The notes beneath the pieces are model-generated. The model was not told where the DNA came from. It did not search any database and was given only the letters and a program-made list of their open reading frames with translations. From Rhodoblastus sp. 17X3 (GTDB lineage Bacteria > Pseudomonadota > Alphaproteobacteria > Rhizobiales > Beijerinckiaceae), in the NCBI RefSeq assembly GCF_030056575.1, contig NZ_JASHHX010000030.1, positions 1 to 33,677 of the forward strand: a stretch of DNA of 33,677 nucleotides, in the 5' to 3' direction. Every line of letters starts with the position of its first letter. The first letter of the stretch is position 1. This document shows, piece by piece, positions 8,493 through 30,806 of this stretch. The position numbers and the translations under genes are program-made.

Positions 8493-8520
8493 ATATTGCA
8501 TCTACGCTAGAAGAGGATAT

Positions 8521-8542: not shown

Positions 8543-8557
8543 CTTGAGGAGGTCAAA

Positions 8558-8938: not shown

Positions 8939-9048
8939 GCGGCCATGCATCGAACATTCGCCGCCGCAGCCTTCCTTGATCAATGACGAAGCGCGGCGGC
9001 GAAAATGAACAAGTGGTCGATGGAGCCAACATCTCAGAGGAGCGACCG

Positions 9049-10582: not shown

Positions 10583-10676
10583 CGTCCTGAAACGGGGCCG
10601 TCTTGCGTCCTGAGGGGCGAAGACCGTCCGCGCGACGTCATGCGAAGGCCGCCTTGCGGCCGGGAGATCGATTTCC

Positions 10677-12209
10677 ATGTTGCCTTTTGCTCGTTTCACG
10701 GGCGCCTTTGCGCTCGTCGCCGCCTGCGCCCTTTGGGCGTTGGCCATGCCTACGCTCGCGTCCTGGTCAGGCCCTGCCATGGCGCAGGCTCAGGACGACG
10801 CGATCCTGTTCTACCGCGACGCCATGGGGGGCGCGGCGTTGTCCAGCGCCCCGAAAAAGGATGGCATGGGCATGGACTTCCTGCCGGTTCGGCGCTCAGC
10901 GGTCCTGCCCCTGCTGGCGAAGCTTCCGGCGACGCCCTCATCCTCCACGGACGAGCCCCTGTTCTGGCGCGATCCGATGGGTGGCGCGGAAATTTCGCTT
11001 AAGCCCAAAAAGGATTCCATGGGCATGGATTTCCTGCCCGTGCGCGCCACGGATATCGCCGGGCTGCTGCCGCCGATCGGGACGAAGTCGGACGCCTCGC
11101 CGGCGCCGAAGTCCGTCGAGGCTGCGAAGAAACGCATCCTTTATTACCGCAATCCGATGGGCCTCGCCGATGTCTCGCCGGTTCCGAAAAAGGACGGCAT
11201 GGGCATGGATTATTTGCCCGTCTACGAGGGCGAGGAAACCGATTCCGCGATCGTCAAATTGCCGCCCGGAAAAATCCAGCGCACCGGCGTGCGGTCGGAA
11301 GCCGTTCAGGCGAAGGCCATCGGCGACCAGATCCGGGCGCCCGGAACGATCCAGCTCGACGAGCGCCGCGTGACCATCGTCTCGACGCGCTCCACCGCCT
11401 ATATCGAGAAAGTCGCGGACGTCACGACCGGCGAGGCCGTGAAGAAGGGGCAGGTCCTGTTTCGGTTCTTCTCGCCGGAAATCGCGGCCGCTGCAGCGCA
11501 ATATTACGCCAATCCCGGTTATGAGGGCGCGCGCACCCGGCTCGACGTCCTCAATGTTCCGCCCGATTTCATCGCGGAAATCGATCGCTCGCGGAAAGTG
11601 CCGTTGAGCGTCGAATGGCGGGCGCCGCGCGACGGGATCGTCATGGAGCGCCAGGCGACCGACGGCATGAAGGCCGACGCCGGCCAATCCCTGTTCAAGA
11701 TCGCCGATCTCACCGCCGTCTGGGCCCTGGTCGACGTCGCCGAGCGCGATTACCCGCGCATCCAGCCCGGGCAGGCGGTCTCGGTCCATGTTCGCGGCCT
11801 GCCGGAGCGAATTTTCTCGGGCCGCGTCAGCCTGATCTATCCCCAGATCAATAGAGAAACCCGCACGGCCCGCGTGCGCGTCGAGCTGCAAAACCCGGAC
11901 CTCGTCCTGCGGCCCGACATGTATGTCGAGGCGGAGATCGCGACCGGCGACGGCGGCAAGGTCCTGACCGTTCCCGACAGCGCGGTGATCGATTCCGGCA
12001 CGCGCAAGATCATCATCCTCGACCTCGGCGAGGGCCGTTTCGAGCCGCGCGAGGTGCAGGTCGGCCGGCGCGGCGAGGGCGCCGTCGAAATCCGATCCGG
12101 CGTCGCCGAGGGCGACAAGGTCGTGACCTCGGCCAATTTCCTGATCGACGCCGAAAGCAATCTCAAGGCGGCCCTCAAGGGCCTGTCGCAGGCGGAGGAT
12201 GCGAAATGA
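10677..12209 (+). CDS. cusB: Cation efflux RND periplasmic adaptor CusB with three metal-binding modules
   Basis: This 510-residue membrane-fusion protein links an RND pump to an outer-membrane channel and hands over Cu(I) or Ag(I). After a signal or anchor segment come three tandem heavy-metal-binding modules at about residues 43-71, 94-122 and 153-183, each with YR(D/N)xMG, PKKD, MGMD and LPV. The usual adaptor parts follow: beta-barrel and lipoyl segments (RVTIVSTRSTAYIEK, GEAVKKGQVLF, ATDGMKADAGQSLFKIADL) and a helical hairpin. Most CusB relatives carry one such module. GGGAG precedes the ATG at 10677. The stop overlaps the cusA start by four bases. Confidence 0.9.
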   Translation: MLPFARFTGAFALVAACALWALAMPTLASWSGPAMAQAQDDAILFYRDAMGGAALSSAPKKDGMGMDFLPVRRSAVLPLLAKLPATPSSSTDEPLFWRDPMGGAEISLKPKKDSMGMDFLPVRATDIAGLLPPIGTKSDASPAPKSVEAAKKRILYYRNPMGLADVSPVPKKDGMGMDYLPVYEGEETDSAIVKLPPGKIQRTGVRSEAVQAKAIGDQIRAPGTIQLDERRVTIVSTRSTAYIEKVADVTTGEAVKKGQVLFRFFSPEIAAAAAQYYANPGYEGARTRLDVLNVPPDFIAEIDRSRKVPLSVEWRAPRDGIVMERQATDGMKADAGQSLFKIADLTAVWALVDVAERDYPRIQPGQAVSVHVRGLPERIFSGRVSLIYPQINRETRTARVRVELQNPDLVLRPDMYVEAEIATGDGGKVLTVPDSAVIDSGTRKIIILDLGEGRFEPREVQVGRRGEGAVEIRSGVAEGDKVVTSANFLIDAESNLKAALKGLSQAEDAK

Positions 12210-15200: not shown

Positions 15201-15388
15201 AAGTCATGCAGCGTATCGCCGTGCCGATGATCGGCGGCATGGTCTCATCCACCCTTCTGACGCTGATTGTCATTCCCGCGATTTACGACCTCGTCAAAGG
15301 TTTCTCGCTGCCGCGAGAGGCTCATTTGCTCGGAAAGGATGCGGATGCGCCGAAATCCGCGGATCAGGATTTTCAAGCGGCTGAATGA
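12206..15388 (+). CDS. cusA: Heavy-metal efflux RND pump CusA
   Basis: This 1060-residue inner-membrane proton antiporter of the HME-RND family has twelve expected membrane helices and two large periplasmic loops. Family hallmarks include DFPGQAPQVVEDQVTYPL near the start and VGAMVDAAIVMIEN-type sequence in helix 4 (GAMVDAAIVMIENAHK). The three methionines that bind Cu(I) in E. coli CusA have counterparts in LLYMPTTLPG, PTEMFET and LDMLSTGIRTP, so the substrate is monovalent copper or silver. It extrudes periplasmic or cytoplasmic Cu(I) with CusB. No cusC-type outer-membrane channel gene is in the window. A frame of over 1000 codons on the opposite strand is a shadow of this gene. Confidence 0.94.
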   Translation: MIGRIIAWSARNLVLVFVAVAFIVAAGVYALRTLPLDALPDLSDVQVIVYTDFPGQAPQVVEDQVTYPLASAMLTVPRSKVVRGFSFFGVSFVYVIFEDGTDLYWARSRVLEYLSAAGSRLPAGVTPVLGPDATGVGWVYQYAVVAKELTLAELRSVQDWTIRYGLAKAEGVAEVASVGGFVKQYNVVVDPNRLKALGIPLSKVREAIRASNTDVGGRTVELSEFEYIVRGRGYLRGVPDLETIVLKSDNGTPLLLKDVARVEIGPDERRGITELNGDGEVASGIALQRFGANALTVIDNVKAAFAALAPSLPKGVEIVPVYDRSQLILAAIDTLKHTLFEESLIVALVCVIFLLHVRSALVAILMLPVGVLMAFAAMKALGLGANIMSLGGIAIAIGAMVDAAIVMIENAHKHLERAAPEKPRLEILIEAATEVGPALFFSLLVITVSFLPIFTLESQEGRLFGPLAYTKTFSMAAAALLSVTLVPALMVIFVRGKIVAESRNPINRFLIWLYRPIIRLVLKARVLTILLALAILAVTIWPARQIGSEFMPTLNEGTLLYMPTTLPGLSVTKAAELLQRQDQIIKNFPEVESVYGKAGRVSSATDPAPTEMFETVIQLKPKAQWRPGLTMDKLIADMDAALQFPGVSNAWTMPIKGRLDMLSTGIRTPIGVKIFGPDLSQIEALARQVETVLKKVPGTSSAYAERIIGGYYLEIVPDRSALARYGLTIGDVQEVIATALGGETVTTTVEGRERYGVNIRYPRDFRSDPQSIANDVQVPLPSGGTAPLGEVAKVALVRGPTSIRTENGQLAAYVYVDVRDRDIGSYVAEARQAVANSIAFPQGYYVAWSGQFEYMERAAARMKIVVPITLLIIFLLLYLNFRRVAETLIVMASLPFALVGGVWLMWRLDFNMSVAVAVGFIALAGVAAETGVVMLIYLDHARREVAAARAAAGRLFTRGDLHEAIMIGAVERVRPKMMTVAAIMAGLLPILWSTGAGSEVMQRIAVPMIGGMVSSTLLTLIVIPAIYDLVKGFSLPREAHLLGKDADAPKSADQDFQAAE

Positions 15389-15409
15389 ACATGGATGGAG
15401 GAAGCCATT

Positions 15410-15769
15410 ATGAGCGGTCCGGCAGCAGCGATCCGGTCAATCGTCATCCGGGTCCTTGTCGCCTCGCTGGTCGGAATCGGCGGGCTTCCGCTCGCCGCTG
15501 GCTCGGCCGCAGCGCGACATTCGCCGCAGCCCTGGCGGCTGAAGCCGCAGGGCGAGGGAACTGTGAACCGGATCGATGTCGCCAAGCGAACCATCAACGT
15601 GACGCATGACCGGATCGACCTTTTGGACTGGCCCGCACGGACGGAGAGTTTCGGCGTCGCGAAGGGAGTCGAACTCCGACAGCTCCATCGGGGAGCAAGG
15701 ATCATTTTTTCTCTGGCGCGCGGAAAGGAGGGCGGGTTCGTCATTCAGGAGATCAAGCCGGACGATTGA
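15410..15769 (+). CDS. CusF paralog lacking both Met ligands
   Basis: This is a 119-residue exported protein with a signal peptide (IRSIVIRVLVASLVGIGGLPLAAG) and a CusF-type OB fold: GEGTVNRIDVAKRTINVTH, then LLDWPARTESF, and GARIIFSLARGKEGGFVI. The CusF positions His66 and Trp74 are kept, but the two Met ligands are Arg77 and Glu79, so it should not bind Cu(I) as CusF does. It may bind another metal or partner, or be drifting. I start at ATG 15410, with GGAGGA upstream, 21 bases after cusA. The canonical paralog follows 60 bases later, suggesting tandem duplication and divergence. Confidence 0.75.
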   Translation: MSGPAAAIRSIVIRVLVASLVGIGGLPLAAGSAAARHSPQPWRLKPQGEGTVNRIDVAKRTINVTHDRIDLLDWPARTESFGVAKGVELRQLHRGARIIFSLARGKEGGFVIQEIKPDD

Positions 15770-15829
15770 ACGGAGCCGCAACGGCGGGCGCCCTCGCGTG
15801 ACTGATGCGTGTTTTGACGGAGACGGACA

Positions 15830-16183
15830 GTGAAATTGAACTGGATTTGCAAACTCGCCCCCGCCCTCATCGCCGGCGGCAGCGCCGCATTCGGAGCCTT
15901 GCCGTCGGCCGGCGCGGCCCCTGACGCGGCTCGCCTGGCGTTTGCGCAGGCAGAAAAGCCGACCGGCGAGGGAACGCTCAACACGATCGACGCCGCCGCG
16001 CGCAGGCTGAATATCACGCATGGTCCGGTGGCTGCCCTGAACTGGCCGGGGATGACCATGGATTTTGCCGTTGGTCCCACCGTCGATCTCACGTCGCTCA
16101 AGGCGGGATCGAAAATCAGATTCACCCTGAGCCGCGGCGCCGACGGCATGTTTGTCATCGACCGGATCGAGCCGGCTGACTGA
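15830..16183 (+). CDS. cusF: Canonical CusF periplasmic copper chaperone
   Basis: This 117-residue exported protein starts at GTG (15830, preceded by a GGAG-type site). The signal region runs to about residue 40. The mature OB fold carries His64, Trp72, Met75 and Met77 in NITHG and NWPGMTMDF, exactly the spacing of E. coli CusF (His36, Trp44, Met47, Met49). CusF binds Cu(I) or Ag(I) in the periplasm and delivers it to CusB and CusA. Its place after cusBA fits. GEGTLNTID and RGADGMFVIDRIEPAD mirror the preceding degenerate paralog. Confidence 0.87.
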   Translation: MKLNWICKLAPALIAGGSAAFGALPSAGAAPDAARLAFAQAEKPTGEGTLNTIDAAARRLNITHGPVAALNWPGMTMDFAVGPTVDLTSLKAGSKIRFTLSRGADGMFVIDRIEPAD

Positions 16184-16215
16184 GCGGGCGTTAGAACGGA
16201 GGAATGGAGGAGCCG

Positions 16216-16338
16216 ATGATGGGATTCGACGGAACAATGGGCGGCGGAGCGATGTGGGGCATGGGGTTGTTCTGGCTCCTGATCCTCGTCCTCGTCATTC
16301 TGGGGATCGCCGCGCTCATCAAATACCTGCGGGGGTAG
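16216..16338 (+). CDS. 40-residue single-helix membrane protein
   Basis: This short gene reads MMGFDGTMGGGAMWGMG followed by a hydrophobic helix (LFWLLILVLVILGIAALI) and KYLRG. GGAGG at 16207-16211 lies at proper distance from ATGs at 16216 and 16219; an in-frame ATG at 16204 is less well placed. The Met/Gly-rich start and one helix are typical of tiny membrane proteins found in copper efflux clusters. It could be a pump accessory; its function is unknown. It lies 32 bases after cusF and 62 bases before copC. Confidence 0.65.
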   Translation: MMGFDGTMGGGAMWGMGLFWLLILVLVILGIAALIKYLRG

Positions 16339-16400
16339 GAACGCCGCCACGCGACTTCCGCCCCAAATCTGGCTGGCATGTTTGAAAACGTGAGGATGAA

Positions 16401-16775
16401 ATGAAATTCAAGGGCGCTGTTTTTGCACTCGGAGCGGTTGTGTGTTCCGCATTGGCGGCGGGAGAAGCTTCTGCCCACGCTCATCTCAAAAGCGCGATCC
16501 CCGCGCCCGACGCCATCCTTTCGGCGCCGCCGCAGGAGGTGCGGATCGAGTTCGGCGAAGCCGTCGAACCGAGGATGTCGGGCATAGAGCTTGTCGGCGC
16601 CAACGGACCAGTCGCCGGCGTAAGCAAGGCCTATGTCGATCCGGCCGCGCCGGAGACCCTCGTCGTCAAGCTTTCCCAGCCGCTGCCGGCCGGAGCTTAT
16701 GAAGCCCGTTGGCGTTGCGTCGGCAAGGACAGCCACGTGATGCGCGGCAGCTATCATTTTGAAGTGCGCCCATGA
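16401..16775 (+). CDS. copC: Periplasmic copper-binding protein CopC
   Basis: This is a 124-residue protein with a signal peptide ending ASA, so the mature protein starts HAHLKSAIPAPDA. His1 is the first ligand of the Cu(II) site of CopC/PcoC/YobA proteins, completed by Asp and His in GKDSHVMRGSYHFEV near the C-terminus. The rest is the CopC beta-sandwich (LSAPPQEVRIEFGEAVEP; LPAGAYEARWRCV). The Met-rich Cu(I) loop is weak, with few Met, so this is the single Cu(II)-site type. It passes copper to CopD, whose gene overlaps by four bases. Confidence 0.88.
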   Translation: MKFKGAVFALGAVVCSALAAGEASAHAHLKSAIPAPDAILSAPPQEVRIEFGEAVEPRMSGIELVGANGPVAGVSKAYVDPAAPETLVVKLSQPLPAGAYEARWRCVGKDSHVMRGSYHFEVRP

Positions 16776-17695
16776 GCGACGAGATATTCCCGATCGTCGT
16801 CACAGCGCGATGGGCGCAGTTCATCGCGCTGTTCATGCTGTTCGGGCAATTCCTGTATCCGTTCTATACCGTGGGCGGCGTTAGGCCCCCGCGCAGTGAG
16901 CGATTGGCTTCCTCGACCCGGAAGACCGTCGCAACTGCCGGATGGGTTCAGGCGCTGTCGATTCTCGCATGGGTCATGGCGTCGGTCGCGAACATGGGCG
17001 ACGGGTGGGGAAGCCTGGTCGATCCCGAATTCTTGAAGGCGTTCTTCTTTGAAACGGGCTTTGGCCATTTATGGCTGGCGCGTTTGCTGATGACCGCCAT
17101 GCTGCTGGGCCTGGTCGTCGGAATGAGAAAGCGTCTCGCCGCCGCTGATGCGTCCACTGCCGTCGCGCTCTTTCTTGTCGGCGCGCTGCTTGCCAGTCAG
17201 GCGGGTGTTGGCCATCCAGCGGCGTTCCCGGAGGGGGAAAGGCCGTTGGTCATCATCGGCTATGGATTGCATATCCTTGGCGCCGCCGCCTGGATCGGGG
17301 GATTCTGGCCCCTCCGGGCTCTGCTGGCCGAGATGACGATCGACAACCGCATCCGTCCCTATCTGCAGTTCGTTTTGCGGCGTTACGCCATCATGGCGAG
17401 CATCGCCGTCGTCCTCGTGCTGCTCGGCGCGGCGATCAACATCAGACCGCAGGTCGGGCTGATCGACCCCGGCTCCATTTCGGCCTGGGGCTGGGCCGTT
17501 GGGCTTAAATTCATTCTGTTCGGCGCATTGATCGCGATCGCTTATCGCAATCGCTTCGTTTTGACGCCCTTGCTTGTCACCCGGCCCGCCGACGCCTCCA
17601 AAAATCTGCTCCGCAACATCGTGATGGATCAGGGTCTGGCGTTGGCGGTCCTGGCGGTGGCCTCGGTCATGGGAATTGTTTCGCCGTCAGGATAG
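16772..17695 (+). CDS. copD: Copper resistance membrane protein CopD
   Basis: This 307-residue integral membrane protein has eight or so hydrophobic segments. It matches the CopD family through ARWAQFIALFMLFGQ, VGHPAAFPEG, ILGAAAWIGGFWPL (the conserved H..G..AWIG..) and a late helix pattern with LKFILFGALIAIAYRNR. CopC/CopD pairs move copper across the inner membrane; import is the usual view, for example to supply cuproenzymes. The start overlaps the copC stop (ATGA). The gap of 135 bases to the next gene contains no ORF of note. Confidence 0.87.
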   Translation: MSDEIFPIVVTARWAQFIALFMLFGQFLYPFYTVGGVRPPRSERLASSTRKTVATAGWVQALSILAWVMASVANMGDGWGSLVDPEFLKAFFFETGFGHLWLARLLMTAMLLGLVVGMRKRLAAADASTAVALFLVGALLASQAGVGHPAAFPEGERPLVIIGYGLHILGAAAWIGGFWPLRALLAEMTIDNRIRPYLQFVLRRYAIMASIAVVLVLLGAAINIRPQVGLIDPGSISAWGWAVGLKFILFGALIAIAYRNRFVLTPLLVTRPADASKNLLRNIVMDQGLALAVLAVASVMGIVSPSG

Positions 17696-19596: not shown

Positions 19597-19911
19597 TTAT
19601 TTGAACTTGTAATAATCTTGATTGAGCGCCGCGACCATGGCGTCGATTTCGTCGGGAGCGACCGGAGCGCTGAGGCTCGACACGCATCTTTCGACCTGTT
19701 TGTGCAGGCCGGGCAAATCCTTCACCTTGGGATTGGGGCGCGTATAGAGATTGAGCGCGACACCGTCCGGGGCATGCTTTTGATGGCAGGCGCCGTTACA
19801 ATCATTTTCCGCGAGCAGTCGGCGGCCGAGGGCCACGGTTTCGCCTTCGCCGGCCCAGGCGGAGCCGCTCGTCGCGATCAGGGTCAGAATGAGCGCTTTA
19901 TGGAACCACAT
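19597..19911 (-). CDS. Small c-type cytochrome with a CXXXCH heme motif
   Basis: This is a 104-residue exported protein with signal peptide HKALILTLIATSGSAWA. It has one heme-binding candidate, DCNGACHQKHAPDG, in which Cys38 and Cys42 are separated by three residues before His43 instead of the usual two. Similar small cytochromes from sulfur oxidisers read LNLYTRPNPKVK, LPGLHKQVERC and DEIDAMVAALNQDYYKFK around a normal CXXCH (my recollection). A second Cys (RCVSSL) is kept. Its start overlaps the end of the transporter gene by 14 bases, so it is co-translated. Heme attachment needs checking; a frame-neutral insertion could have occurred. Confidence 0.72.
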   Translation of the reverse strand: MWFHKALILTLIATSGSAWAGEGETVALGRRLLAENDCNGACHQKHAPDGVALNLYTRPNPKVKDLPGLHKQVERCVSSLSAPVAPDEIDAMVAALNQDYYKFK

Positions 19912-20968
19912 GGCCGAACCCCCAGAATTTTTTCTGATCGAGCAACCTGTCGGTGAGCACGGCGCCGATCCACATGGACCACAGGACGATCCAGGCCGTA
20001 ACCGCGAATATAGAGGCGCCGGAGACGCCCGCGCCGACGGCGCAGCCGCCCGCCAGCACGCCGCCGAAGCCCATCAGGCACCCGCCGGCAATATAGCGCC
20101 GCATGCTCGCCCCGTCACGGAAACCTTCGAGCTTCAGATCGCCGCCCGCCGCCGCCGCGAGGAACGACCCGAGGAAGACTCCGGGAATCAAGGCGAGATC
20201 GAAGGAAAGGCCCGTTCCCGGCGGCGACAGAACATACATCAGCACGTCCGCTGAAGGCGAGGTGAAGCTGAGGGAATGGACCGGCGCCATTTCGAACGAG
20301 CTGGTCGACATGGCGTAATTGAAGGCCCACGCGGCGGCGACCATCAGTCCGACGCCGGCGCTGGTCAGCCAGGTCGCCACGCGCAATTTGCAACGCAGGG
20401 CGATGACGATTCCGAGCGCCAGCCAGCAGGCGCCGAACAGTAGCGCGCCGCCATGGCCAATATGGAGCATGGCGATCATGTCGCGCGACGAACTGTCGAT
20501 GGTCCACCAATCATTAATCGCGGAGCGCACCCGCGACAGCGCTCCGTCGCGGGACATCTGCGCCACCACGGCGAAGACCATGCCGGACAGGAGGGCGCGC
20601 AGATTGCCGGTGGCCGAGAGCACCAGCATGCGGCTGCCGCAAGCGCGGGTCAGCGTCATGCCGCAGCCGAACATCAGCCCGCCAATGATCGAGCCAGACA
20701 GGCTGCCGCGATTATTGAGCTGACGTACGGCGCCGGTGTCGAACAGGCCGAGCAGAATCAGGGCCTGGGTGATGATAAGGGCGGTGGCGAAAGCGAAAAG
20801 CCAGGTCGCCAACCTTCCGCCGGCTTCGCCATGGGCGATTTCCAAAGTCGCCGCGCGCAGGCAGAAGCGCGATCTCTGCGCCAGCACGCCGAACAGCACG
20901 CCGATGAGGGCGCCGCCCAGCGCCAGCGCATTGCGGTCGCCGACGAGATCGATAAGCTGGTCCAGCAT
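19898..20968 (-). CDS. YeeE/YedE (TsuA) family thiosulfate/sulfur transporter
   Basis: This 356-residue protein has about nine membrane helices in two pseudo-repeats. The family Cys residues that handle thiosulfate in TsuA are present: QRSRFCLRAA near the start, FGCGMTLTRACGSR in the middle and GGVLAGGCAVGAG near the end. It probably moves thiosulfate or another reduced sulfur compound through the inner membrane. Its ATG shares one base with the stop of the DsrE-family gene (TGATG), showing tight coupling to the sox operon. Gene symbols tsuA or yeeE would both be defensible. Confidence 0.85.
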   Translation of the reverse strand: MLDQLIDLVGDRNALALGGALIGVLFGVLAQRSRFCLRAATLEIAHGEAGGRLATWLFAFATALIITQALILLGLFDTGAVRQLNNRGSLSGSIIGGLMFGCGMTLTRACGSRMLVLSATGNLRALLSGMVFAVVAQMSRDGALSRVRSAINDWWTIDSSSRDMIAMLHIGHGGALLFGACWLALGIVIALRCKLRVATWLTSAGVGLMVAAAWAFNYAMSTSSFEMAPVHSLSFTSPSADVLMYVLSPPGTGLSFDLALIPGVFLGSFLAAAAGGDLKLEGFRDGASMRRYIAGGCLMGFGGVLAGGCAVGAGVSGASIFAVTAWIVLWSMWIGAVLTDRLLDQKKFWGFGHVVP

Positions 20969-21423
20969 CAGGGCTTGATATAGGCGTAATGGTCGCGACT
21001 TTGAAGCTGGGTGACGCGCACCACGCCCGAGGGAACGTAATCCGCCTCCATCACGAACCTGTCCCTGGTCAGATTGCGGCGCTTCATGGTGATCTCGCAG
21101 ACTTCGAAGGTCACGCCCTGCGCCTTCAGGCCCGAAATCAGCGGCCCATATTCGACATTGCTCTTCGGGTCGCGCGCCCCGTCGAACAGAAAATCGACGC
21201 CGTCGCCATGGCTAACGACGACAATCTTGGTGTTCGGCGCGACCTCCATCTGGTTGCGCATATTGCGCAGGGCCTTGAGCGCCTGCTCTGCGGCATCGTC
21301 GATATGATAGACCACCTTGTCCTGCGCGGATTGGTCCTGCGCCATGGCGGGCGCCGCATTTTCCTGCGCGAGAACGGGCGCCGCGCAGAACAGCATCGTC
21401 AGAAAAGCCAGAATCCTGCGCAT
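20968..21423 (-). CDS. Exported DsrE-family sulfur-related protein
   Basis: This is a 151-residue protein with a signal peptide (RRILAFLTMLFCAAPVLA). The mature domain has the DsrE/DsrF fold: KVVYHIDD, ALKALRNMRNQMEV, TKIVVVSHGDGVDFLFDG, LKAQGVTFEVCEITMKRR. The Cys in FEVCEITM occupies the position used by DsrE-like sulfurtransferases. DsrE-family proteins carry or transfer persulfide sulfur; a periplasmic one next to soxB likely accepts sulfane sulfur from the Sox cycle. I start at ATG 21423, with GGAGG just upstream. It lies 27 bases after soxB. Confidence 0.82.
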   Translation of the reverse strand: MRRILAFLTMLFCAAPVLAQENAAPAMAQDQSAQDKVVYHIDDAAEQALKALRNMRNQMEVAPNTKIVVVSHGDGVDFLFDGARDPKSNVEYGPLISGLKAQGVTFEVCEITMKRRNLTRDRFVMEADYVPSGVVRVTQLQSRDHYAYIKP

Positions 21424-21450
21424 GTGAACCTCCATGCAAGCGGGGGACGG

Positions 21451-23172
21451 TCAGCTGGCAATGCCGGTATTGCCTTCGACATTCTTCAATTTCGGAAGAT
21501 TGAGCGTGGGCGCCGCAATGGTCTTTTTCGAGCGCAGATGCCGCGCCACCAGATCCCAGATCGGTTCGCCGCCGGCGTCCCGCGCCGCTTCGGAAACAGG
21601 CGCCCAGCCGGCGACCTTATAGGTCTTTTCGGCGTCGATCGGCTTGGCGTCGAGCGTCATGTCGCCGATGCGATTTCCCATCGTGGCGGTCGGATCGCAG
21701 GAATAGCTCATGCCGCCAACGCGCACCATGTCGCCGCCCTGCTGATAATATGGATCCGCGTTGAACAGATTGTCGCAGACATCTTCGAGAATCTGCTTGA
21801 TCTGCGACCCTTTCATCGGCGTCAACGTGACATGGGGATAGGTGATCGCCGTCTGATCGAGCACGTTCTCCATGGTGATCGGCTCGCCCGGCATGATCGT
21901 GGTCCCCCAACGGAAGCCAGGCGAAAAAGCTATTTCGGCGTCTTTTTCCGCGATCAAGGCGTCAAGGATCAGCTGGTCGAAACTGCCGTTGAAATTGCCG
22001 CGCCGGTAAAGCAGGCCCTCGCTCACCGCCAGCTTCTCGCCGAGCTTGCTCTCAAAGGGCGCGCGGGTCCGGGCGATCAGCGCCGCCATTTCCGCATCCG
22101 CCGGCAAGAGATTGGAGAAGACCGGCAGCAGCCGGTAGCGGAAATCGGCGACATGGCCGTCCTTGACGTCGAAATCGAGCACGCCGACGAACTTGCCGTT
22201 GGAGCCCGCGTTGGTCACCAGGGTCTTGCCGCCGCCGTTCTCGACGATGCTCGGCGACGGAATCCCGTCATGAGTGTGGCCGCCGAGAATGGCGTCAATT
22301 CCGCGCACGCGCGAGGCCATTTTCAGATCGACGTCCATGCCGTTATGCGACAGCACGACCACGACCCGCGCGCCTTCGCCGCGGGCCGCGTCAACCGTCT
22401 TCTGCATGTTGTCTTCCTGGATGCCGAAGGTCCAGTCGGCGACCATGTAACGCGGATTGGCGATGGGCGTGTAGGGAAAGGCCTGGCCGATCACCGCCAC
22501 CTTGACGCCATTGACCGCGCGCATGACATAGGGCTTGAACACCAGATCGCCGAAATCGGTAGTCTTGATGTTCTGCGCGACAATATCAACATGGCCGGCG
22601 AAATCCTTGTCGGCGATTTCCTTCACGCGCTCCTGGCCGTAGGTGCATTCCCAGTGCAGCGTCATGACGTCAACGCCGAGCAACTTGGCGGCGTCGACCA
22701 TGTCCTGCCCCTGCGTCCACATCGCGGCGCCCGACCCCTGCCAGGTGTCGCCCCCATCGAGCAGCAGCGCGCCGGGACGGGTGGCGCGCAGGCGCTTCAC
22801 CAGGCTGGCCAGGTGAGCGAAGCCGCCGACCCTGCCATAGAGCGCGGCGTAACGCTCGAAATCGAGAAATGTGAAGGCGTGGGCGAGGCGGGTCGCCGGC
22901 GGGACGCCGAAATGCTTCAAAAAGGCCTCACCGACGAGATGCGGCGGCCGGTTCGCCATGGCGCCGACGCCGATATTGACATTGGGCTCGCGGAAATAGA
23001 TCGGCCGCAATTGCGCGTGGCAATCGGTGATATGCAGCAGCGACACATTGCCGAAAGCAGGCGCGTCGTAAAGCGCCTCGGCGGCCTGTTCCGCCCGGGC
23101 CGGATCGAGGGGCAGCGCCAGACCCGCCGCGCTTGCGGCGGAGAGAAGATGCAAAAATTCGCGGCGATTCAT
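21451..23172 (-). CDS. soxB: Thiosulfohydrolase SoxB
   Basis: This 573-residue periplasmic enzyme hydrolyses the terminal sulfone of SoxY-bound thiosulfate to release sulfate. The start NRREFLHLLSAASAAG is Tat-like. Di-manganese motifs of the calcineurin-like phosphoesterase domain are visible: SLLHITDCHAQL (Asp50, His52), LLDGGDTWQGSG, VLSHNGMDVD and ILGGHTHDGI. The 5'-nucleotidase C-terminal domain follows. Length and motifs are standard for SoxB. The reading frame is intact, and the upstream 30 bases carry a short ribosome site. Between it and soxZ lies a soxX-like remnant. Confidence 0.94.
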   Translation of the reverse strand: MNRREFLHLLSAASAAGLALPLDPARAEQAAEALYDAPAFGNVSLLHITDCHAQLRPIYFREPNVNIGVGAMANRPPHLVGEAFLKHFGVPPATRLAHAFTFLDFERYAALYGRVGGFAHLASLVKRLRATRPGALLLDGGDTWQGSGAAMWTQGQDMVDAAKLLGVDVMTLHWECTYGQERVKEIADKDFAGHVDIVAQNIKTTDFGDLVFKPYVMRAVNGVKVAVIGQAFPYTPIANPRYMVADWTFGIQEDNMQKTVDAARGEGARVVVVLSHNGMDVDLKMASRVRGIDAILGGHTHDGIPSPSIVENGGGKTLVTNAGSNGKFVGVLDFDVKDGHVADFRYRLLPVFSNLLPADAEMAALIARTRAPFESKLGEKLAVSEGLLYRRGNFNGSFDQLILDALIAEKDAEIAFSPGFRWGTTIMPGEPITMENVLDQTAITYPHVTLTPMKGSQIKQILEDVCDNLFNADPYYQQGGDMVRVGGMSYSCDPTATMGNRIGDMTLDAKPIDAEKTYKVAGWAPVSEAARDAGGEPIWDLVARHLRSKKTIAAPTLNLPKLKNVEGNTGIAS

Positions 23173-23399: not shown

Positions 23400-23711
23400 T
23401 CAGCTTACAGGCGCTTCGTCCGAGCGGGAGTCGCCCGAACTGTCCTTCCATGAGATGGAGACCTTGTCGCCCGGTTGGCCGCCCTTGATCTTGAAACCCA
23501 GGTACGGGTTCTTCGCCACCGCCTGTCCCCATTGCGCCTGCATCACCACCTTGTCATTGAGCTTGGCGGTGACCTCGGTGATGAACAGGGCGGGAATGAG
23601 CTCGCCGGCAGGATCCTTGCGCAACCCTGTCTCCATCACATGGTTCATCAGCACTTTTACTTCGGTCACGCCGTCCTTGCTGGCGGCGCGGATTTTCATC
23701 GGATTGCCCAT
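23400..23711 (-). CDS. soxZ: Sulfur carrier partner SoxZ
   Basis: This 103-residue protein forms the SoxYZ heterodimer that carries sulfur intermediates through the thiosulfate oxidation cycle. Family features are KIRAAS, TEVKVLMNHVMETGLRKD, PALFITEVTAKLNDKVV and the C-terminal GGQPGDKVSISWKD. There is no signal peptide, as expected, since SoxZ is exported together with SoxY by Tat. GAGGAG lies 10 bases before the ATG. It follows soxY after 132 bases, an unusually wide gap for this pair, in which I see no gene. Confidence 0.94.
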   Translation of the reverse strand: MGNPMKIRAASKDGVTEVKVLMNHVMETGLRKDPAGELIPALFITEVTAKLNDKVVMQAQWGQAVAKNPYLGFKIKGGQPGDKVSISWKDSSGDSRSDEAPVS

Positions 23712-23843: not shown

Positions 23844-24314
23844 TCAGCCGCCGCAGCCGCCGAGCGTCACCTTGATTTCCTTGGTCGCCGTGTAAAATTT
23901 CCCATCGGCCTTCACCAGCGCGATCACATTGGACGTCTGAGCCATTTTCAGGCGCGTGCTGACCTCCGGAAGCATATCCGGTCCGAGGTCGAACTGGGCG
24001 GTGAGCATGGTCGGGTTCTTTTCCACGAGGAATGAGATCTGGGTGGTGTTAGGAATCTTGCTGATCGCCTCGACCGGCACCACCGCGCCGTTTTCGGCAA
24101 TATCCGAGGCAATGAGCTGTACCTCGGCGCTGGCGGTTGGCGCCTCGACGCCCATGGTCTTGTAAACGTCGGCTATGGTCTTGGCGTCGAAGGCCGCCTT
24201 GTTCCAGGCCGCATAGGCCATGCGCGGCAGGAAGGTCGCGGCGGAGACGGCAAGGCCGAGCAGGCCGGTCTGGCGCAGAAATCCGCGACGGCTGGCTGGG
24301 TGTTCGAGATTCAT
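23844..24314 (-). CDS. soxY: Sulfur carrier protein SoxY
   Basis: The product has 156 residues with a Tat signal (ASRRGFLRQTGLLGLAVSAATFLPRMAYA). The C-terminus ends LGGCGG, with Cys154 as the swinging-arm residue that carries thiosulfate and its products. The middle beta-sandwich has ENGAVVPVEAISKIPNTTQIS and MLPEVSTRLKMAQTSNV. I start at ATG 24314, with AAGGAG upstream; the longer frame lacks signal features. A duplicated 226-bp element lies 127 bases upstream, so soxY likely heads its own transcription unit with soxZ and soxB. Confidence 0.94.
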   Translation of the reverse strand: MNLEHPASRRGFLRQTGLLGLAVSAATFLPRMAYAAWNKAAFDAKTIADVYKTMGVEAPTASAEVQLIASDIAENGAVVPVEAISKIPNTTQISFLVEKNPTMLTAQFDLGPDMLPEVSTRLKMAQTSNVIALVKADGKFYTATKEIKVTLGGCGG

Positions 24315-24845: not shown

Positions 24846-25148
24846 TCAACGGAAGACCGCGTTTCGCCAGGACGCTTTCTGCTCGTTGGCTTGCTCGACC
24901 GAAAGTTTGGCCTGCGCCAGCGCCTCATTGGCGGCTGCTATCGCTTCGTCCCATTTCCCGTCGGCGAGCGCCTTCCTGGCTTGGGTCAAAGCGGTCTCGG
25001 TCGTGGTCCAGGCCGCCTTGGCGGCGACCGCCGCTGATTCAGCCGCCTGCGCGGCGGCTATCGCCGCTTCGGCTTCCGCCTGTGTGGCAGCAAGAGCGGG
25101 CAGGCTCAGAATCGCGAGCCCGGCCGCAAAAAAGATTGCACGTATCAT
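24846..25148 (-). CDS. soxK: SoxXA-binding protein SoxK
   Basis: This is a 100-residue protein with a signal peptide (MIRAIFFAAGLAILSLPALA) and a mature part of Ala/Glu-rich helices (EAEAAIAAAQAAESAAVAAK; ALADGKWDEAIAAANEALAQAK). This matches SoxK (SAXB), a helical protein that binds SoxAX and stimulates thiosulfate oxidation, usually encoded next to soxA. Composition is low complexity, so the call rests on size, signal peptide and position as well as the pattern. Its ATG overlaps the soxA stop by four bases. Confidence 0.75.
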   Translation of the reverse strand: MIRAIFFAAGLAILSLPALAATQAEAEAAIAAAQAAESAAVAAKAAWTTTETALTQARKALADGKWDEAIAAANEALAQAKLSVEQANEQKASWRNAVFR

Positions 25149-26017
25149 GGACGAGTCCCCGGACCGACGATGGGAATGCCGTTGCTCATGTAAGAAAGGA
25201 AGTATTCGACATTACGATAATCCTCGTCGTCTGGCTTCAGCGGCACTGCGCGGGTCTGCGACGAGCAGGTCGAGATACGACGAATCGAGGTGCCCATACT
25301 GCCCCAGTCGGAGCGGTAAATCGGCATCGCCGCCAGAATGCCCAGCGCCGGGGCCAGAATGTCGCCGCGCATACGTTCGCCTGCCGGCGACATATGGCAC
25401 GACGCGCAGGAGACGCCGAGCTGGCCTTTCCGCGAATAGAAGAATTCCTTGCCGCGCTCATAGGCGGCCAGCGCGCGCGGATCGTCCGGAATGGCGATCG
25501 CGAACGGCTTGCCGCGCGAGGACTCGGACATCACGGCAGCCAGCGACGCCATCACGCCAGTCATTGGATCGAGCGGCTTTTCGCCATTCTCCACGCGGCA
25601 GCGATTGATCGCGCCTTCCAGCGTCTCGACCTGACCCGTTTCGGCGATGAAGCGCGGATAGGTTTGCCGGACGCCCTCGCCCTTGTTGTCAAAACAATCG
25701 GCGTAGTGCTTGCCGTTGGCGAATGGCTTCTCCCACTCGGCATGCCCTTCGTCGAGCGCCAATTCGTAGGGAGGAAATTCCATGATTTCCTTCCACTGCT
25801 TGCGCATTTCCGCATTGACCGCATAAGGGCCATTGCCGAAATCGTCCTTCGCCACATTGGGGAATTTGGCGAAGAAGAAAGCCTGTAAAGCCCTGCGATC
25901 CGCTTCAGGGTCAATCTTCTCGTCGGCGGCCTTCGCCGGCGCCGCCGCCAGAAGCAGCAGAGCGCAAGCAACATTCCGGGCGAGTGCAAATCGGTCACGC
26001 AGGCTGGACTTGATCAT
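25145..26017 (-). CDS. soxA: Sulfur oxidation cytochrome SoxA
   Basis: This 290-residue periplasmic protein pairs with SoxX to attach thiosulfate oxidatively to SoxY. After a signal peptide (ending APAKA) come the two family domains. The N-terminal one has lost its heme: Cys108 (ADCFDN) and Cys140 (NRCRVE) are positioned for a disulfide. The C-terminal one has CASCH (Cys204, Cys207, His208), and Cys251 in ISTCSSQTRAVPL corresponds to the catalytic Cys that carries a persulfide and ligates heme. It is therefore the single-heme type. I start at ATG 26017, sharing ATGA with the upstream small ORF. Confidence 0.92.
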   Translation of the reverse strand: MIKSSLRDRFALARNVACALLLLAAAPAKAADEKIDPEADRRALQAFFFAKFPNVAKDDFGNGPYAVNAEMRKQWKEIMEFPPYELALDEGHAEWEKPFANGKHYADCFDNKGEGVRQTYPRFIAETGQVETLEGAINRCRVENGEKPLDPMTGVMASLAAVMSESSRGKPFAIAIPDDPRALAAYERGKEFFYSRKGQLGVSCASCHMSPAGERMRGDILAPALGILAAMPIYRSDWGSMGTSIRRISTCSSQTRAVPLKPDDEDYRNVEYFLSYMSNGIPIVGPGTRP

Positions 26018-26214: not shown

Positions 26215-27861
26215 TCATAGCGTGTAGAGGAAGTCGATGATCTTCTCGATCTCGGCCGGGGTCAGAACATGATTGCGGCCCAAGGACGGCATTGGCGCAA
26301 TCGGATTGCGTATCGACTCGTCGGTCAGAATCTCGACCAGATCGGCGCGATTGGGGAAGCGACGCTTCATGTCGACCAATTCCCGACCGACGCTGCTTGG
26401 CGCGTCGCCGCCCTTGAGCGTGTGGCAGGCGAGGCAGTTGCCCTTGACGCGATCCAGCGCCAGCGCCTGCCCGGCCTTGACGTCATCCGCATGCGACGCC
26501 GGCGGATTTTCCGGAACATAATCGAGCGGCTTGCCGGCGATCACGCCGCGCATGGCGGCGACGTCGCTCGCCGAGACCGGCGACGCCTTGTTGCCCCAGC
26601 TGTTGCGGATGAAGCTGAGAATGTCGGCCACGGCGCCGTCGTCCAGCTTGGCCAGTTCAGGCATGGACGGATGCGTCTTGTCCGCCGGGGTTTTGGCCAT
26701 CGCGCCGCCGGCGAGCGTGATCTGGATCAGCGAGCTCGGATTGACCGTCGTCACGACGGCATTGCCCGCCAGAGCGGGGAACAACCGCGGCGCGCCCTGC
26801 CCGTTCATGCGATGGCAGGGGGCGCATCGCGCGACATAGCCGAGCGCCCCCGGGCTATGATCCGCGCCGTCATACAGCTTCGCAGTGGTGATGTCCTCCG
26901 CCTTTGTCGCGGATGCGGCGTGGCCGGGCCGGGCCGCGCGGCCTGCGAGATAGGCGGCGATCGCCGATGCGTCAGCGTCGCTCAGGTGTTGCGCGCTGTG
27001 CTGAACGACTTCGGCCATGCTGCCGAACGCCGCCGTACGGGCGTTGCGGCCGGTCTTGAGGAAATCGGCGATCTCCTGCTGGGACCAGCTCGCCAGCCCG
27101 ACATCCTCGTGACGCAGGCTCTTGGCGAACCATCCCTCAAGTTCCGAGCCGGAGAGGAACTCGCCATCCGGCCCATCCTTGAGGGCCTTTTCCTGGAAGG
27201 CCGCGCCGCGCGGCGTGTGGCAGGCGCCGCAATGCCCCGCGCCCTCGACGAGATAGGCGCCCCGCGCGATTTCGGGCGTTGCGCCCTCCGGCGGGGTAAA
27301 ACTGCGCTGACCGCCGAACAGCATCTGCCACCAGGCAAGCGGCCAACGCATATTGGTCGGCCAGGGAATCGTCGAGTCATGGTTCTGCTGCGCGACCGGC
27401 TGAACCCCAGAGACGAAATAGGCGTAGAGCGCCTGCACATCCTCGTCTGTCAGCACGGAGTAGGAAACATAGGGCATCGCCGGATAGAGCGGGGAGCCAT
27501 CCTTGCGGACGCCATGACGGACCGCCCGTTCGAAATCGGCAAAGTCGTATCCGCCGATGCCGGCGCCCTTGTCCGGAGTGATGTTCGTCGAATAGATCGC
27601 GCCGATCGGCGTCTGCATCGCCAGACCGCCCGCGAACGGCTTGCCTCCCGGGGCGGTATGACACGCCACGCAATCCGACGCTTGCGCGATATGCCGCCCC
27701 TTTTCGATCAGGACCGGATCGGCGGAATCCACATGAACATTTTGCCGAGGCGCGAACCAGATCGGCGCCACGTAGCTGCCGCCAACGGCAACCACCAGCC
27801 CAATCGCCGCAACGGAGGCGCCGAGCTTCAGAAATTTTATGACCGACACTCCAACCCCCAT
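26215..27861 (-). CDS. Triheme dehydrogenase-type cytochrome c fused to SoxX
   Basis: This 548-residue exported tetraheme protein starts with an N-terminal anchor or signal (GASVAAIGLVVAVGGSYVAP). Residues about 50-425 resemble the triheme cytochrome subunit of membrane alcohol or gluconate dehydrogenases, with CVACH (64-68), CGACH (211-215) and CAPCH (346-350), TPIGAIYSTNITPDKG and PPEGATPEIARGAYLV. Residues about 455-548 are a SoxX domain: KGNCLACHTLKGG (Cys476, Cys479, His480), LVDMKRRFPNRADL and PMPSLGRNHVLTPAEI with Met524 as likely ligand. No other intact soxX is in the window, so this likely serves as SoxX for SoxA encoded just downstream. The start could also be GTG at 27849. Confidence 0.85.
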   Translation of the reverse strand: MGVGVSVIKFLKLGASVAAIGLVVAVGGSYVAPIWFAPRQNVHVDSADPVLIEKGRHIAQASDCVACHTAPGGKPFAGGLAMQTPIGAIYSTNITPDKGAGIGGYDFADFERAVRHGVRKDGSPLYPAMPYVSYSVLTDEDVQALYAYFVSGVQPVAQQNHDSTIPWPTNMRWPLAWWQMLFGGQRSFTPPEGATPEIARGAYLVEGAGHCGACHTPRGAAFQEKALKDGPDGEFLSGSELEGWFAKSLRHEDVGLASWSQQEIADFLKTGRNARTAAFGSMAEVVQHSAQHLSDADASAIAAYLAGRAARPGHAASATKAEDITTAKLYDGADHSPGALGYVARCAPCHRMNGQGAPRLFPALAGNAVVTTVNPSSLIQITLAGGAMAKTPADKTHPSMPELAKLDDGAVADILSFIRNSWGNKASPVSASDVAAMRGVIAGKPLDYVPENPPASHADDVKAGQALALDRVKGNCLACHTLKGGDAPSSVGRELVDMKRRFPNRADLVEILTDESIRNPIAPMPSLGRNHVLTPAEIEKIIDFLYTL

Positions 27862-28083: not shown

Positions 28084-28309
28084 CGGCTATCGTCATCATT
28101 CCTCCCTTGAACACGTCGTCTTTTCGACCACGCGAACCGAAGTCATGGCGTCCGGGGAGTTGCTCTCCCTCTGCGATGGACGCGTCCTCGATCCGCGTCG
28201 GGCGCTTTTCCCGCCCGGACGCTGTTCCTCGTTTCGCAAATCTTGGCCGTGGCCAGGCCGCATGCCTATCCGGGATGGCGCCGGGGGCGCCTGGGGGTTT
28301 TCATCCAGA
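28084..28309 (-). repeat. 226-bp duplicated non-coding element, copy B, upstream of the cytochrome fusion
   Basis: This is the second copy of the element at 24441-24666, in the same orientation. It lies 223 bases upstream of the fusion's start, and its far end covers the last nine bases of the response-regulator gene. The stem GTCGGGCG (28196-28203) with CGCCCGGAC keeps pairing, including a C-to-U change compatible with a G-U pair and a U-to-C change that turns G-U into G-C. Bases 27862-28083 contain no gene I can support. Confidence 0.8.
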
Positions 28310-28924
28310 CGCCGATCCGTCGGCCTCCGTCGCCCAGGCAATCAATTGCGCCACCGAGGCCACGCCGGCCTTGGTCATGATATTGTGGCGGTGATTTTCC
28401 ACCGTCTTGACCGAAATATCCAGCGCCGACGCAATAACCTTGCTGGTCTTGCCGAGAATCACCAGACGCAGCACATCCCGCTCGCGTTCGGTCAGACCGC
28501 TCAGCCGCCGTTCGAGGCTGGCGCGGCTGGCGCGACGGCGCAACTCTTCGGCGCTGGCGGCGAGCGCCTCGCCGATGCGGTCGAGCAACAGCTGATCGTC
28601 GAAGGGCTTTTCCAGAAAATCAACGGCGCCCAGCTGAATCGCGCGCACCGCCTTGGGGATGTCTCCATGCCCGGAGACGAACACGATCCGCGCCGGGGAT
28701 CGGCGCTCCGCGAGATCGCGCTGCAACTCCAGGCCGCTCAAGCCCGGCAAACGCACATCGAGCACCAGGCAGGACGGTCGGCTGTCGTCGAGCGCGCGCA
28801 ATAATTCCTGCGCCGAGGCGCACAGGCGATGGCTGTAGCCGACCGAGCCGACGAGAAAGGCCATGGCGTCTCGAACAGCCGGATCGTCGTCCACAATATA
28901 GATGATCGGCGAGGCCTCAGACAT
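28301..28924 (-). CDS. FixJ/TtrR-type response regulator
   Basis: This is a 207-residue two-domain regulator. The receiver domain has IIYIVDDDPAVRDA, phospho-acceptor Asp56 in CLVLDVRLPG, VFVSGHGDIP and DFLEKPFDD. The LuxR-type HTH has LTERERDVLRLVILGKTSKVIA and KTVENHRHNIMTKAGV. Regulators with this layout (FixJ, TtrR, ThsR) respond to a membrane kinase and activate promoters. Its start overlaps the kinase gene by eight bases. It likely controls the sox genes immediately downstream; this is inferred from position and from the kinase's sensor type. Confidence 0.88.
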   Translation of the reverse strand: MSEASPIIYIVDDDPAVRDAMAFLVGSVGYSHRLCASAQELLRALDDSRPSCLVLDVRLPGLSGLELQRDLAERRSPARIVFVSGHGDIPKAVRAIQLGAVDFLEKPFDDQLLLDRIGEALAASAEELRRRASRASLERRLSGLTERERDVLRLVILGKTSKVIASALDISVKTVENHRHNIMTKAGVASVAQLIAWATEADGSASG

Positions 28925-30725
28925 GGGCGATCCCTGGGGCGATCTCTGGGGCGTTTTCTTGCGCGTTTTCTTGCGCGCTCTTTGGGGCGATCGGCAGATA
29001 GAACCGGAAAGTGGTTCCGCGCTGTGTGTTTTCGTCGACGCTGAGACGCCCGCCATGGGCCTCGACGATCGAGCGGCTGAGCGAGAGGCCCAGGCCGAGT
29101 CCTCCTGGCTTGGTTGTGTAAAAGGCCTCGAACAGTCGTTCTCGCGCCCCCGGCGCGAGGCCGGGGCCATTGTCGCTGACGGTGGCGACGATTGCAGCGC
29201 CTTCCCGCGCCACGACGAACCGGATGCTCTTCTCCGGTTGGCCGTCGACGGCCTCAAGCGCATTCTGCAGCAGGTTCAGCGTCACTTCCTCGATCTGGAG
29301 GCGATCGGCGACCACGGGCGGCAGCGACTCTGGCACCTCGGCGTCCACCCGCAGCTCATGGGCCGCCGCGGAAGGCTCGAACAGGGCCAGGGCGTCCCGG
29401 AAGACCGCGGCGGGTTCGAGCGGCTCCTGCCGAGCCGGATTCTTGCGCACAAATTCCCGCATGCGCCGGACGATGTCGCCGGCCCGTTCTGCTTGAATGG
29501 CGATGCGGCCGATCGCCTCGCGGACGCCGTCGACATCCTCGCCGCGCGCCAGCCGGCGCTCGCAGCCGCGCGCATAGCTGAGAATGGCGGCAAGCGGCTG
29601 ATTGATCTCGTGAGCAAGCGAACTCGCCATTTCGCCCATCAGAGACAGGCGCATGGCGTGCTCCATCTGCACGTCCTTCAGACGGGCGAGTTCATGCGCC
29701 TCTTCCAGCTCGCGGGTTCGCTTCCTGATGATATAGGCGACCCGAATCACGTGAGCGATCCACCAAAGCGCCGCCATTCCGATCAGGGCCGCGCCGTAGC
29801 GGTAGGGCCACAAAAGGTCGGCCATGCCCAGCCGGGTGAAAGGGGCGTAAGGTCCTGCCTTGATCGTGCGGTAAAGATCCTGGACTGACTGATAATCGTC
29901 GGGCTCGGTCCAGATCCTGTCGCCGGGTCCGGGCTGCATGGCATGCAGCGCCGCGGCGACGGCCTCGGCCAAGGGGGCGGGAGTCTGCGCGACCGCGACG
30001 AAGGCCCAGCCGGGATAAAGCCGGGTCGAAACCTGACAGATCGGCAGGTCGGTCGGCTTTCGCCCGAGCACCCTGAACTCGTCCGGCCCGGCCTTGCCTT
30101 CGGCGACCAGCTTCTCCAGCAGGCAGGCGCGGATGATCCCGGCGTCTGCGCGGCCCGCGCGGAGAACGTCCAGCACGCCGCTCGCCGGATAGCCGACGAA
30201 GACCGGAAAGGCGTCCTTGTTCGGGTCGATCCCCCGTTCCAGCAATTCCCGCGTCGCCGCGCGATAGCCGAAGGCGTCAGGCGCGACGGCCGCCAGCTTG
30301 CGGGCGCGCAGATCGGTCAGATGCTGCAAGTCGCTCCGCCGATTGAGCGCGATAATGGCCGCGCCGACAGATTCGCTCGACGGAAAGCCGTCGAGGTCCT
30401 GTTCGGTCGCGAGCGCCGAAGCGGAATAATCGATCTTCAATTCGAGATAATGGCCGGGATTGGTGATCAGAAAATCGAGGCTATGCGCGGCCACGGCCGA
30501 GGTCAGGAAGGCCAGGCTGCCCGCGACCATGGTGAAGTGGTAGCCCGGCAGCGTCGCGTTCAGATAGGCCAGGGTCGGTTCCCATGCGCTCTCCGCCTCT
30601 TCCGCGCCGAGATAGGCGAGAACGCCGACACGAATTTCGGTCTGTTGCGCCGCATGACCGGAAGGCGCGGGCCAGAAGGCCAGAGCCGCCAAAATCGTCA
30701 GAATTGCGCGCGCCCATTTCAGCAT
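28917..30725 (-). CDS. TtrS/ThsS-like sensor histidine kinase with PhnD-type periplasmic sensor
   Basis: The product has about 602 residues. A signal peptide (RAILTILAALAFWPAPSGHA) precedes a PhnD-like substrate-binding sensor (IRVGVLAYLGAEEAESAWEP; VFVGYPASGVLDVLRAGRADAG), one membrane helix near 312-332 and a HisKA domain with His372 in SSLAHEINQPLAAIL. The ATPase domain has LLQNALEAV, SDNGPGL and GLGLGLSLSRSIVEAHGG. This architecture is that of TtrS and ThsS, which sense tetrathionate and thiosulfate. I start at ATG 30725 for the signal peptide; ATG 30800 would add 25 unlikely residues. The last residues come from a 12-bp tandem duplication. Confidence 0.85.
   Translation of the reverse strand: MLKWARAILTILAALAFWPAPSGHAAQQTEIRVGVLAYLGAEEAESAWEPTLAYLNATLPGYHFTMVAGSLAFLTSAVAAHSLDFLITNPGHYLELKIDYSASALATEQDLDGFPSSESVGAAIIALNRRSDLQHLTDLRARKLAAVAPDAFGYRAATRELLERGIDPNKDAFPVFVGYPASGVLDVLRAGRADAGIIRACLLEKLVAEGKAGPDEFRVLGRKPTDLPICQVSTRLYPGWAFVAVAQTPAPLAEAVAAALHAMQPGPGDRIWTEPDDYQSVQDLYRTIKAGPYAPFTRLGMADLLWPYRYGAALIGMAALWWIAHVIRVAYIIRKRTRELEEAHELARLKDVQMEHAMRLSLMGEMASSLAHEINQPLAAILSYARGCERRLARGEDVDGVREAIGRIAIQAERAGDIVRRMREFVRKNPARQEPLEPAAVFRDALALFEPSAAAHELRVDAEVPESLPPVVADRLQIEEVTLNLLQNALEAVDGQPEKSIRFVVAREGAAIVATVSDNGPGLAPGARERLFEAFYTTKPGGLGLGLSLSRSIVEAHGGRLSVDENTQRGTTFRFYLPIAPKSAQENAQENAPEIAPGIAHV
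28951..28974. repeat. 12-bp perfect tandem repeat in the kinase C-terminus
   Basis: GCGTTTTCTTGC occurs twice back to back (28951-28962 and 28963-28974). It encodes the repeated Gln-Glu-Asn-Ala near the kinase end. Flanking TGGGGCGATC at 28935 and 28983 and an imperfect 12-mer repeat at 28927-28950 suggest local slippage extended the C-terminal tail beyond the ATPase domain. Confidence 0.7.
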
Positions 30726-30806
30726 TCCGGCGCGAAAGTCGGAGGCGGAAAATACGCCCGCTAATCTGTCCAGTTGGCAATATCGTCGTGGTCGCATCAT
30801 CGCGCT

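Follow-up and report, generated by a model that had tools for sequence, protein, structure and literature searches.

In SoxXA enzymes, electrons pass from the SoxA heme to SoxX and from there to an external acceptor. To our knowledge, which acceptor SoxXA uses inside the cell is not settled. We analyzed a 33,677-nucleotide stretch of the genome of Rhodoblastus sp. 17X3 (the window), for which a sequence-only reading had proposed that SoxX is fused to a triheme cytochrome c, and that the resulting covalent four-heme relay could wire SoxXA to the respiratory chain or to a periplasmic dehydrogenase, linking thiosulfate and alcohol oxidation. The locus raises the question whether the two parts are genuinely one protein and, if so, where its electrons go. 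The gene and its parts are as follows:

26215..27861, minus strand: fused triheme cytochrome c–SoxX gene (translation and domain matches)
27754..27858, minus strand: hydrophobic N-terminal helix, residues 2–36 (hydropathy 1.99 at residues 8–26; helix at 2–36 in the predicted model)
26542..27738, minus strand: triheme cytochrome c module, residues 42–440 (CXXCH at 64, 211 and 346; matches to solved structures)
26446..26511, minus strand: junction, residues 451–472, site of a loss of ~107 nt relative to sister species (DNA alignment)
26218..26445, minus strand: SoxX domain, residues 473–548 (CXXCH 476–480, Met524; TIGR04485, 75.9 bits)

As proposed, the translation is one intact frame, open end to end for 548 codons plus the stop, and neither a stop codon nor a frameshift separates the two halves in this sequence. 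CXXCH motifs begin at residues 64, 211, 346 and 476. The first three have the spacing known from dehydrogenase triheme cytochrome subunits, and comparison with solved structures bore out this assignment: the best solved relative is the alcohol dehydrogenase triheme subunit 8gy2_B (residues 42–440, E 2.2e-111), followed by 8hdd_B (residues 44–439, E 3.1e-99) and 7w2j_C (residues 46–439, E 6.6e-72). Conserved Met129, Met282 and Met400 are candidate heme ligands of this module. The C-terminus does match SoxX, and completely so, spanning positions 2–78 of the 78 in profile TIGR04485 (75.9 bits, cut-off 61; 64.4 bits in the search of the genome's frames). Its heme motif reads CLACH (476–480) and is followed by Met524 in the APMP of PIAPMPSLG, a methionine that we take to be the sixth heme ligand. 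This SoxX, encoded beside soxA, lacks a separate signal peptide and forms a domain of a 548-residue protein, not a small protein by itself; the N-terminal helix likely serves as an uncleaved signal anchor that would place the hemes in the periplasm. The predicted model of the fused protein is weak (AlphaFold2, 22 rows, mean pLDDT 65.6, SoxX part mostly below 60), and the packing of SoxX on the triheme is not visible in it. Foldseek searches with the model matched the triheme part only, whose predicted fold is that of the triheme subunits of alcohol, glucose and fructose dehydrogenases.

The gene lies in a sox cluster:

25145..26017, minus strand: soxA (TIGR04484, 201.8 bits, cut-off 110; single CXXCH)
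24846..25148, minus strand: SAXB-like (SoxAX-binding protein) gene (NF052674, 42.4 bits, below the cut-off of 95)
23844..24314, minus strand: soxY (TIGR04488, 161.1 bits, cut-off 125)
23400..23711, minus strand: soxZ (TIGR04490, 127.9 bits, cut-off 76)
21451..23172, minus strand: soxB (TIGR04486, 871.1 bits, cut-off 550)
20968..21435, minus strand: DsrE-family protein (PF02635, 49 bits, cut-off 22.7)
19898..20968, minus strand: YeeE/TsuA-like transporter (PF04143, 172.7 bits; TsuA models below cut-off)
28301..28900, minus strand: FixJ/TtrR-like response regulator (below equivalog cut-offs)
28917..30800, minus strand: TtrS-like histidine kinase with a PhnD-type sensor domain (PF12974, 113.5 bits; NF040750, 323.7 bits, cut-off 750)

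The gene next downstream of the fusion is indeed soxA. Its frame opens at 26218, and we set the start at 26017 by a signal-peptide-like stretch. The product aligns with the SoxA 1h31_A (E 7.4e-28), including the C-terminal cysteine of both proteins, presumably the catalytic one. The YeeE/TsuA-like transporter may be SoxT-like, judging from its context, and a DsbA-like gene lies further upstream, beyond the TtrS-like kinase. In the genome, which is 99.86% complete, the best soxC match scores 21.5 bits against a cut-off of 420, and the system is a truncated Sox system with soxXABYZ present and soxC absent. Among the genome's listed SoxX matches, the fused gene alone exceeds the cut-off. No TsdA, a thiosulfate dehydrogenase related to SoxA, came up in the genome, where PF21342 matched this SoxA alone. 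Reaction-centre L and M proteins had no match in the genome either, and we reject a photosynthetic reaction centre as acceptor on this ground.

The origin of the fusion is visible in two sister species of the same genus (G002 and G007), in which the triheme gene and soxX are separate and adjacent. Their trihemes are 83% and 81% and their SoxX proteins 86% and 85% identical to the window's, and the order after soxX (soxA, SAXB, soxY, soxZ, soxB, YeeE-like gene) is common to all three. Between the same two anchors, DNA alignment finds 28 nt in the window versus 135 nt in both sister species; the ~107 nt absent from the window comprise the triheme stop codon, the spacer, and the start codon and signal peptide of SoxX. 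A single-base sequencing error therefore cannot account for the fusion. That the two genes were joined by an assembly or sequencing artefact of another kind is very improbable: the draft genome consists of 68 contigs and the fusion was met once, but the loss takes out the stop, the spacer and the signal peptide yet leaves one open frame, the gene sits well inside a 33.7-kb contig, and the halves differ from those of the sister species at 13–19% of residues with the frame undamaged. From sequence comparison, the joining of SoxX and triheme looks like a genuine fusion through deletion, known from one genome. Against G002 and G007, respectively, the window's triheme half has a pairwise dN/dS of 0.20 and 0.25 and its SoxX half one of 0.19 and 0.23, values that mostly span the time before the fusion and are thus no proof of selection on the fused form. 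A similar sox cluster, with SoxB 85% and 84% identical to the window's, is found in two further species of the genus (G001 and G009). Their SoxA proteins (loci L061 and L062) are just 25% and 26% identical, and no triheme match occurs within the 19 kb read, so that the window's type of SoxXA looks like a replacement within the genus.

How rare the fusion is was assessed in sets of 298 family, 397 order, 385 class and 398 phylum genomes, which overlap and each count the window's own genome. The top three to four candidates per genome were scored, and matches were counted up to E 1e-60 in the family set and 1e-115 in the other three, limits strict enough that fusions to more distant trihemes could be missed. 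The fused protein found some match in 84 of 298, 2 of 397, 1 of 385 and 18 of 398 genomes, respectively; a match over residues 1–548 came from the window's genome only. Plasmids yielded 711 matching records, six of them with one place covering at least 80% of the protein; among the best 30 of the 711, five attain this coverage, with matches that stop at residue 451 or 506, and none covers SoxX too. A SoxX match above the cut-off was present in 39 of 100 relatives, the window's genome included, and a scan for heme motifs at 30 soxX loci from 30 of these 39, with up to 1.5 kb on each side, gave no three-motif frame; G002 and G007 are not in this set. At locus L027, an opposite-strand frame of 194 residues near the SoxX gene has four CXXCH matches, which may be chance. 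Neither a SoxX–triheme fusion nor a TsdA–triheme pair was found in open-access titles and abstract openings, a scope outside which most subscription papers lie. Linkage of SoxX and triheme is known from four genomes, and their fusion from one.

For the ancestry of the triheme, genome contigs were searched for relatives, giving at least 587 confirmed, of which 80 loci were kept. A GMC gene lies directly upstream at 56 of these and a diheme TsdA-like gene directly downstream at 22; of the remaining two, L081 is a triheme–TsdA fusion (738-codon frame, five motifs) and L075 has soxX-soxA-SAXB on the opposite strand. The TsdA-like partners at L063 and L064 find thiosulfate dehydrogenase as their best match among solved structures (E 1.8e-47 and 6.5e-52). 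Further triheme–TsdA fusions were met in Ideonella, on C. metallidurans pMOL30, and in G006, G010, G026 and G143. The five-motif proteins of the Ideonella plasmid (L032, 5950–7965) and of pMOL30 (L033, 5773–8025) carry the annotation "c-type cytochrome" only. Genes for a PhnD-type sensor kinase and a response regulator lie at 28301–30800 of the window, beside the SoxX fusion, and at 8069–10500 of L032, beside the Ideonella fusion; perhaps this pair is a shared sensor of thiosulfate or tetrathionate.

A midpoint-rooted tree was built from a chosen set of 71 trihemes (the window and 70 loci), 36 linked to TsdA, 25 to GMC, 4 to SoxX and 6 to neither; 42 of the 56 GMC loci of the contig search, the GMC loci L070 and L071, and the duplicates L036–L038, L040, L041 and L063 were left out. 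The four SoxX-linked trihemes form one clade (100/100), nested in a clade of 34 rows (100/100) that otherwise consists of 30 TsdA-linked rows. Six more TsdA rows, each of them a fusion, group elsewhere (100/99), so that pairing with TsdA may have arisen twice. A triheme–tsdA pair labelled Bacillus subtilis SK6B4 (L076) nests among proteobacterial ones, and its label is doubtful.

These results bear on the second destination that the sequence-only reading had offered, a triheme half that also serves an alcohol or sugar dehydrogenase and so merges thiosulfate and alcohol oxidation. The module resembles the triheme subunits of alcohol, glucose and fructose dehydrogenases in both fold and sequence, a GMC gene adjoins the triheme at 56 of the 80 kept loci, and the genome holds four GMC matches and no second match to the whole fused protein. 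But all four lie on other contigs, a Pfam scan of 30 window proteins brought up no GMC or PQQ dehydrogenase, and the triheme falls inside the TsdA-linked clade, in which there is not one GMC-linked row, the GMC-linked trihemes standing elsewhere in the tree. On gene context and tree position we reject this partnership, which we consider exceedingly improbable.

The Acetobacteraceae MAG that carries L075 (family as recorded) provides a view of the pairing outside the genus. Its triheme, SoxX, SoxA and SAXB are 79%, 84%, 81% and 71% identical to the window's, with the triheme gene divergent from soxX-soxA-SAXB; the gene order of triheme and soxXA is not fixed. The best SoxB of this genome is 58% identical to the window's (56% by blastp) and lies on another contig, accompanied by soxY (44%) and soxZ (37%). 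We read 18.5 kb around this soxB and 13 kb around the triheme, and neither soxX nor soxA has a match in the former. Identities of 71–84% for the cassette versus 58% for SoxB, on separate contigs, fit horizontal transfer of the triheme and soxXA-SAXB as a functional unit, and this unit seems to travel together, with the caveat that a MAG may hold misassigned contigs. Since unfused SoxX-linked trihemes occur in two sister species and in this MAG, the pairing is older than the fusion.

It is unlikely that the fusion is incidental, that is, a neutral or near-neutral deletion whose product is split once exported or has two domains that act independently, with SoxX still passing electrons to a soluble cytochrome c. 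Such an origin would agree with the occurrence in a single genome among those searched, with the unfused state of the two nearest sister species, and with the short end branch of the window's triheme in the tree (0.087), by which the fusion is young at most. Against it, triheme and soxX are neighbours, unfused, in three other genomes, and the parallel triheme–TsdA fusions indicate that joining such a module to a SoxA-family cytochrome has recurred.

We consider it probable that the fused protein gives SoxXA a membrane-anchored four-heme outlet for electrons, with triheme and SoxX in one chain. In the proposed path, SoxA and the SAXB-like protein would oxidatively join thiosulfate to SoxYZ, electrons would move from the heme of SoxA to that of SoxX, and from there, within one polypeptide, through the three N-terminal hemes to the membrane and its respiratory chain. 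In this lineage the triheme, whose wider relatives lie beside TsdA, was already a neighbour of SoxXA before the deletion joined it to SoxX; with the joining, one anchor would export both parts and a soluble carrier step would become dispensable. Architecture, gene linkage, tree position and the loss of stop and signal peptide are seen directly in the sequences, and from them we infer that the protein binds four hemes, forms a complex with SoxA and carries electrons outwards. Of the relay envisaged at the outset, the fusion stands as real by sequence and a covalent route from SoxXA to the respiratory chain is the best inference, whereas the dehydrogenase branch is unsupported.

Two published findings guide this assignment. 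A review describes subunit II of membrane alcohol dehydrogenase, with its three heme c sites, as able to reduce UQ to UQH2 (PMC9171043), and a fusion of TsdA to a diheme electron acceptor is on record (PMC6879331). From these we propose, as the best reading by analogy, that at the membrane SoxXA has in the triheme a dedicated electron acceptor, here made covalent. The triheme module is ~40 C-terminal residues shorter than alcohol dehydrogenase subunit II (8gy2_B has 478 residues and is matched to 436), and the title of 9jqa_C names a truncation of heme 1c and the C-terminal hydrophobic stretch; together these suggest that the membrane or quinone site of the dehydrogenase type may be missing. 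Ubiquinone has a potential of about +0.1 V. The thiosulfate/tetrathionate couple is given as +198 mV in PMC9562282, so that a TsdA-type reaction would have to push electrons uphill to reduce quinone. Fructose dehydrogenase, which is grouped with the UQ-linked enzymes (PMC9171043), has its three hemes at 143, 259 and 545 mV (PMC6472588). By analogy with the dehydrogenase triheme subunits the final acceptor would be ubiquinone; given the potential and the missing stretch, a cytochrome c or an oxidase is about as likely. That the protein forms part of a SoxXA-quinone oxidoreductase, in which a TsdA-lineage triheme passes thiosulfate electrons directly to the quinone pool and soluble cytochrome c is bypassed, is a possibility that we put forward tentatively; if it holds, the conduit from enzyme to membrane is one molecule.

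Electrons might also run inwards: quinol would then drive the triheme and SoxX, and SoxXA would work as a reductase, for instance of tetrathionate or of sulfur bound to SoxY, comparable to TsdA in some bacteria. TsdA enzymes are described as bidirectional (PMC6879331), and sensor pairs lie next to the fusions, TtrS/TtrR-like upstream of this gene and PhnD-type beside the Ideonella one. The TtrS and TtrR equivalog cut-offs are not reached, however, and the surroundings of the gene, a sox cluster that includes soxB, soxYZ and a YeeE-like transporter, are those of thiosulfate oxidation. We regard the reductive direction as quite improbable and retain the outward path.

Comparison with known systems places the membrane outlet more precisely. 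As in SoxXA of the SAXB/SoxK type (1h31), SoxX exceeds its cut-off, the C-terminal cysteine of SoxA is aligned, and a SAXB-like gene is adjacent, whereas the window's SoxX lacks its own signal peptide and is attached at the C-terminus of an anchored triheme cytochrome. A second relative in design is TsdBA of Marichromatium purpuratum, of which 5lo9 is presumably the solved fusion. It likewise couples a thiosulfate-oxidising cytochrome covalently with its electron acceptor (PMC6879331, PMC5146829), but that acceptor is diheme and shares a chain with the catalytic domain, whereas here it is triheme and SoxA is separate, PF21342 being found in SoxA and not in the fused protein. The dehydrogenase cytochrome subunits (8gy2_B, 8hdd_B, 7w2j_C) share the three heme motifs in matching order; unlike them, the window's triheme has an N-terminal helix anchor, a SoxX domain in place of the C-terminal tail, no recognised dehydrogenase partner gene, and a position among TsdA-linked trihemes. 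The five-motif triheme–TsdA proteins (Ideonella, pMOL30, G006, L081) also join a related triheme to a SoxA-family cytochrome, but their partner is TsdA, not SoxX, and six of the seven such fusions in the tree sit in another clade. The window thus holds a Sox system in which SoxXA carries its probable acceptor covalently, in parallel to TsdBA in the case of TsdA; the acceptor itself differs and is of the membrane type.

The fusion thus probably wires sulfur oxidation straight to the respiratory membrane. The cassette names a candidate acceptor for SoxXA, which in one genome accompanies soxXA even where soxYZB lie elsewhere, and the fused protein is a naturally tethered version for timing electron transfer. 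That one triheme family occurs with TsdA in many bacteria, with SoxXA in a few, and as a fusion partner of each points to a general membrane outlet of thiosulfate cytochromes. It also serves as a warning that such triheme genes are not always subunits of sugar or alcohol dehydrogenases.

Two other parts of the window deserve mention. Genes on the plus strand at 5438–17692 are for copper/heavy-metal handling and encode a P-type ATPase with YHS and heavy-metal-binding domains, a CusB-like protein, an AcrB-family pump, CusF, CopC and CopD. At 19597–19911 on the minus strand, a small protein without a Pfam match has a signal-peptide-like start and CX3CH (CNGACH) instead of CXXCH; CNGxCH is kept in all five species compared (the window, G001, G002, G007 and G009) and is possibly an unusual heme c site.
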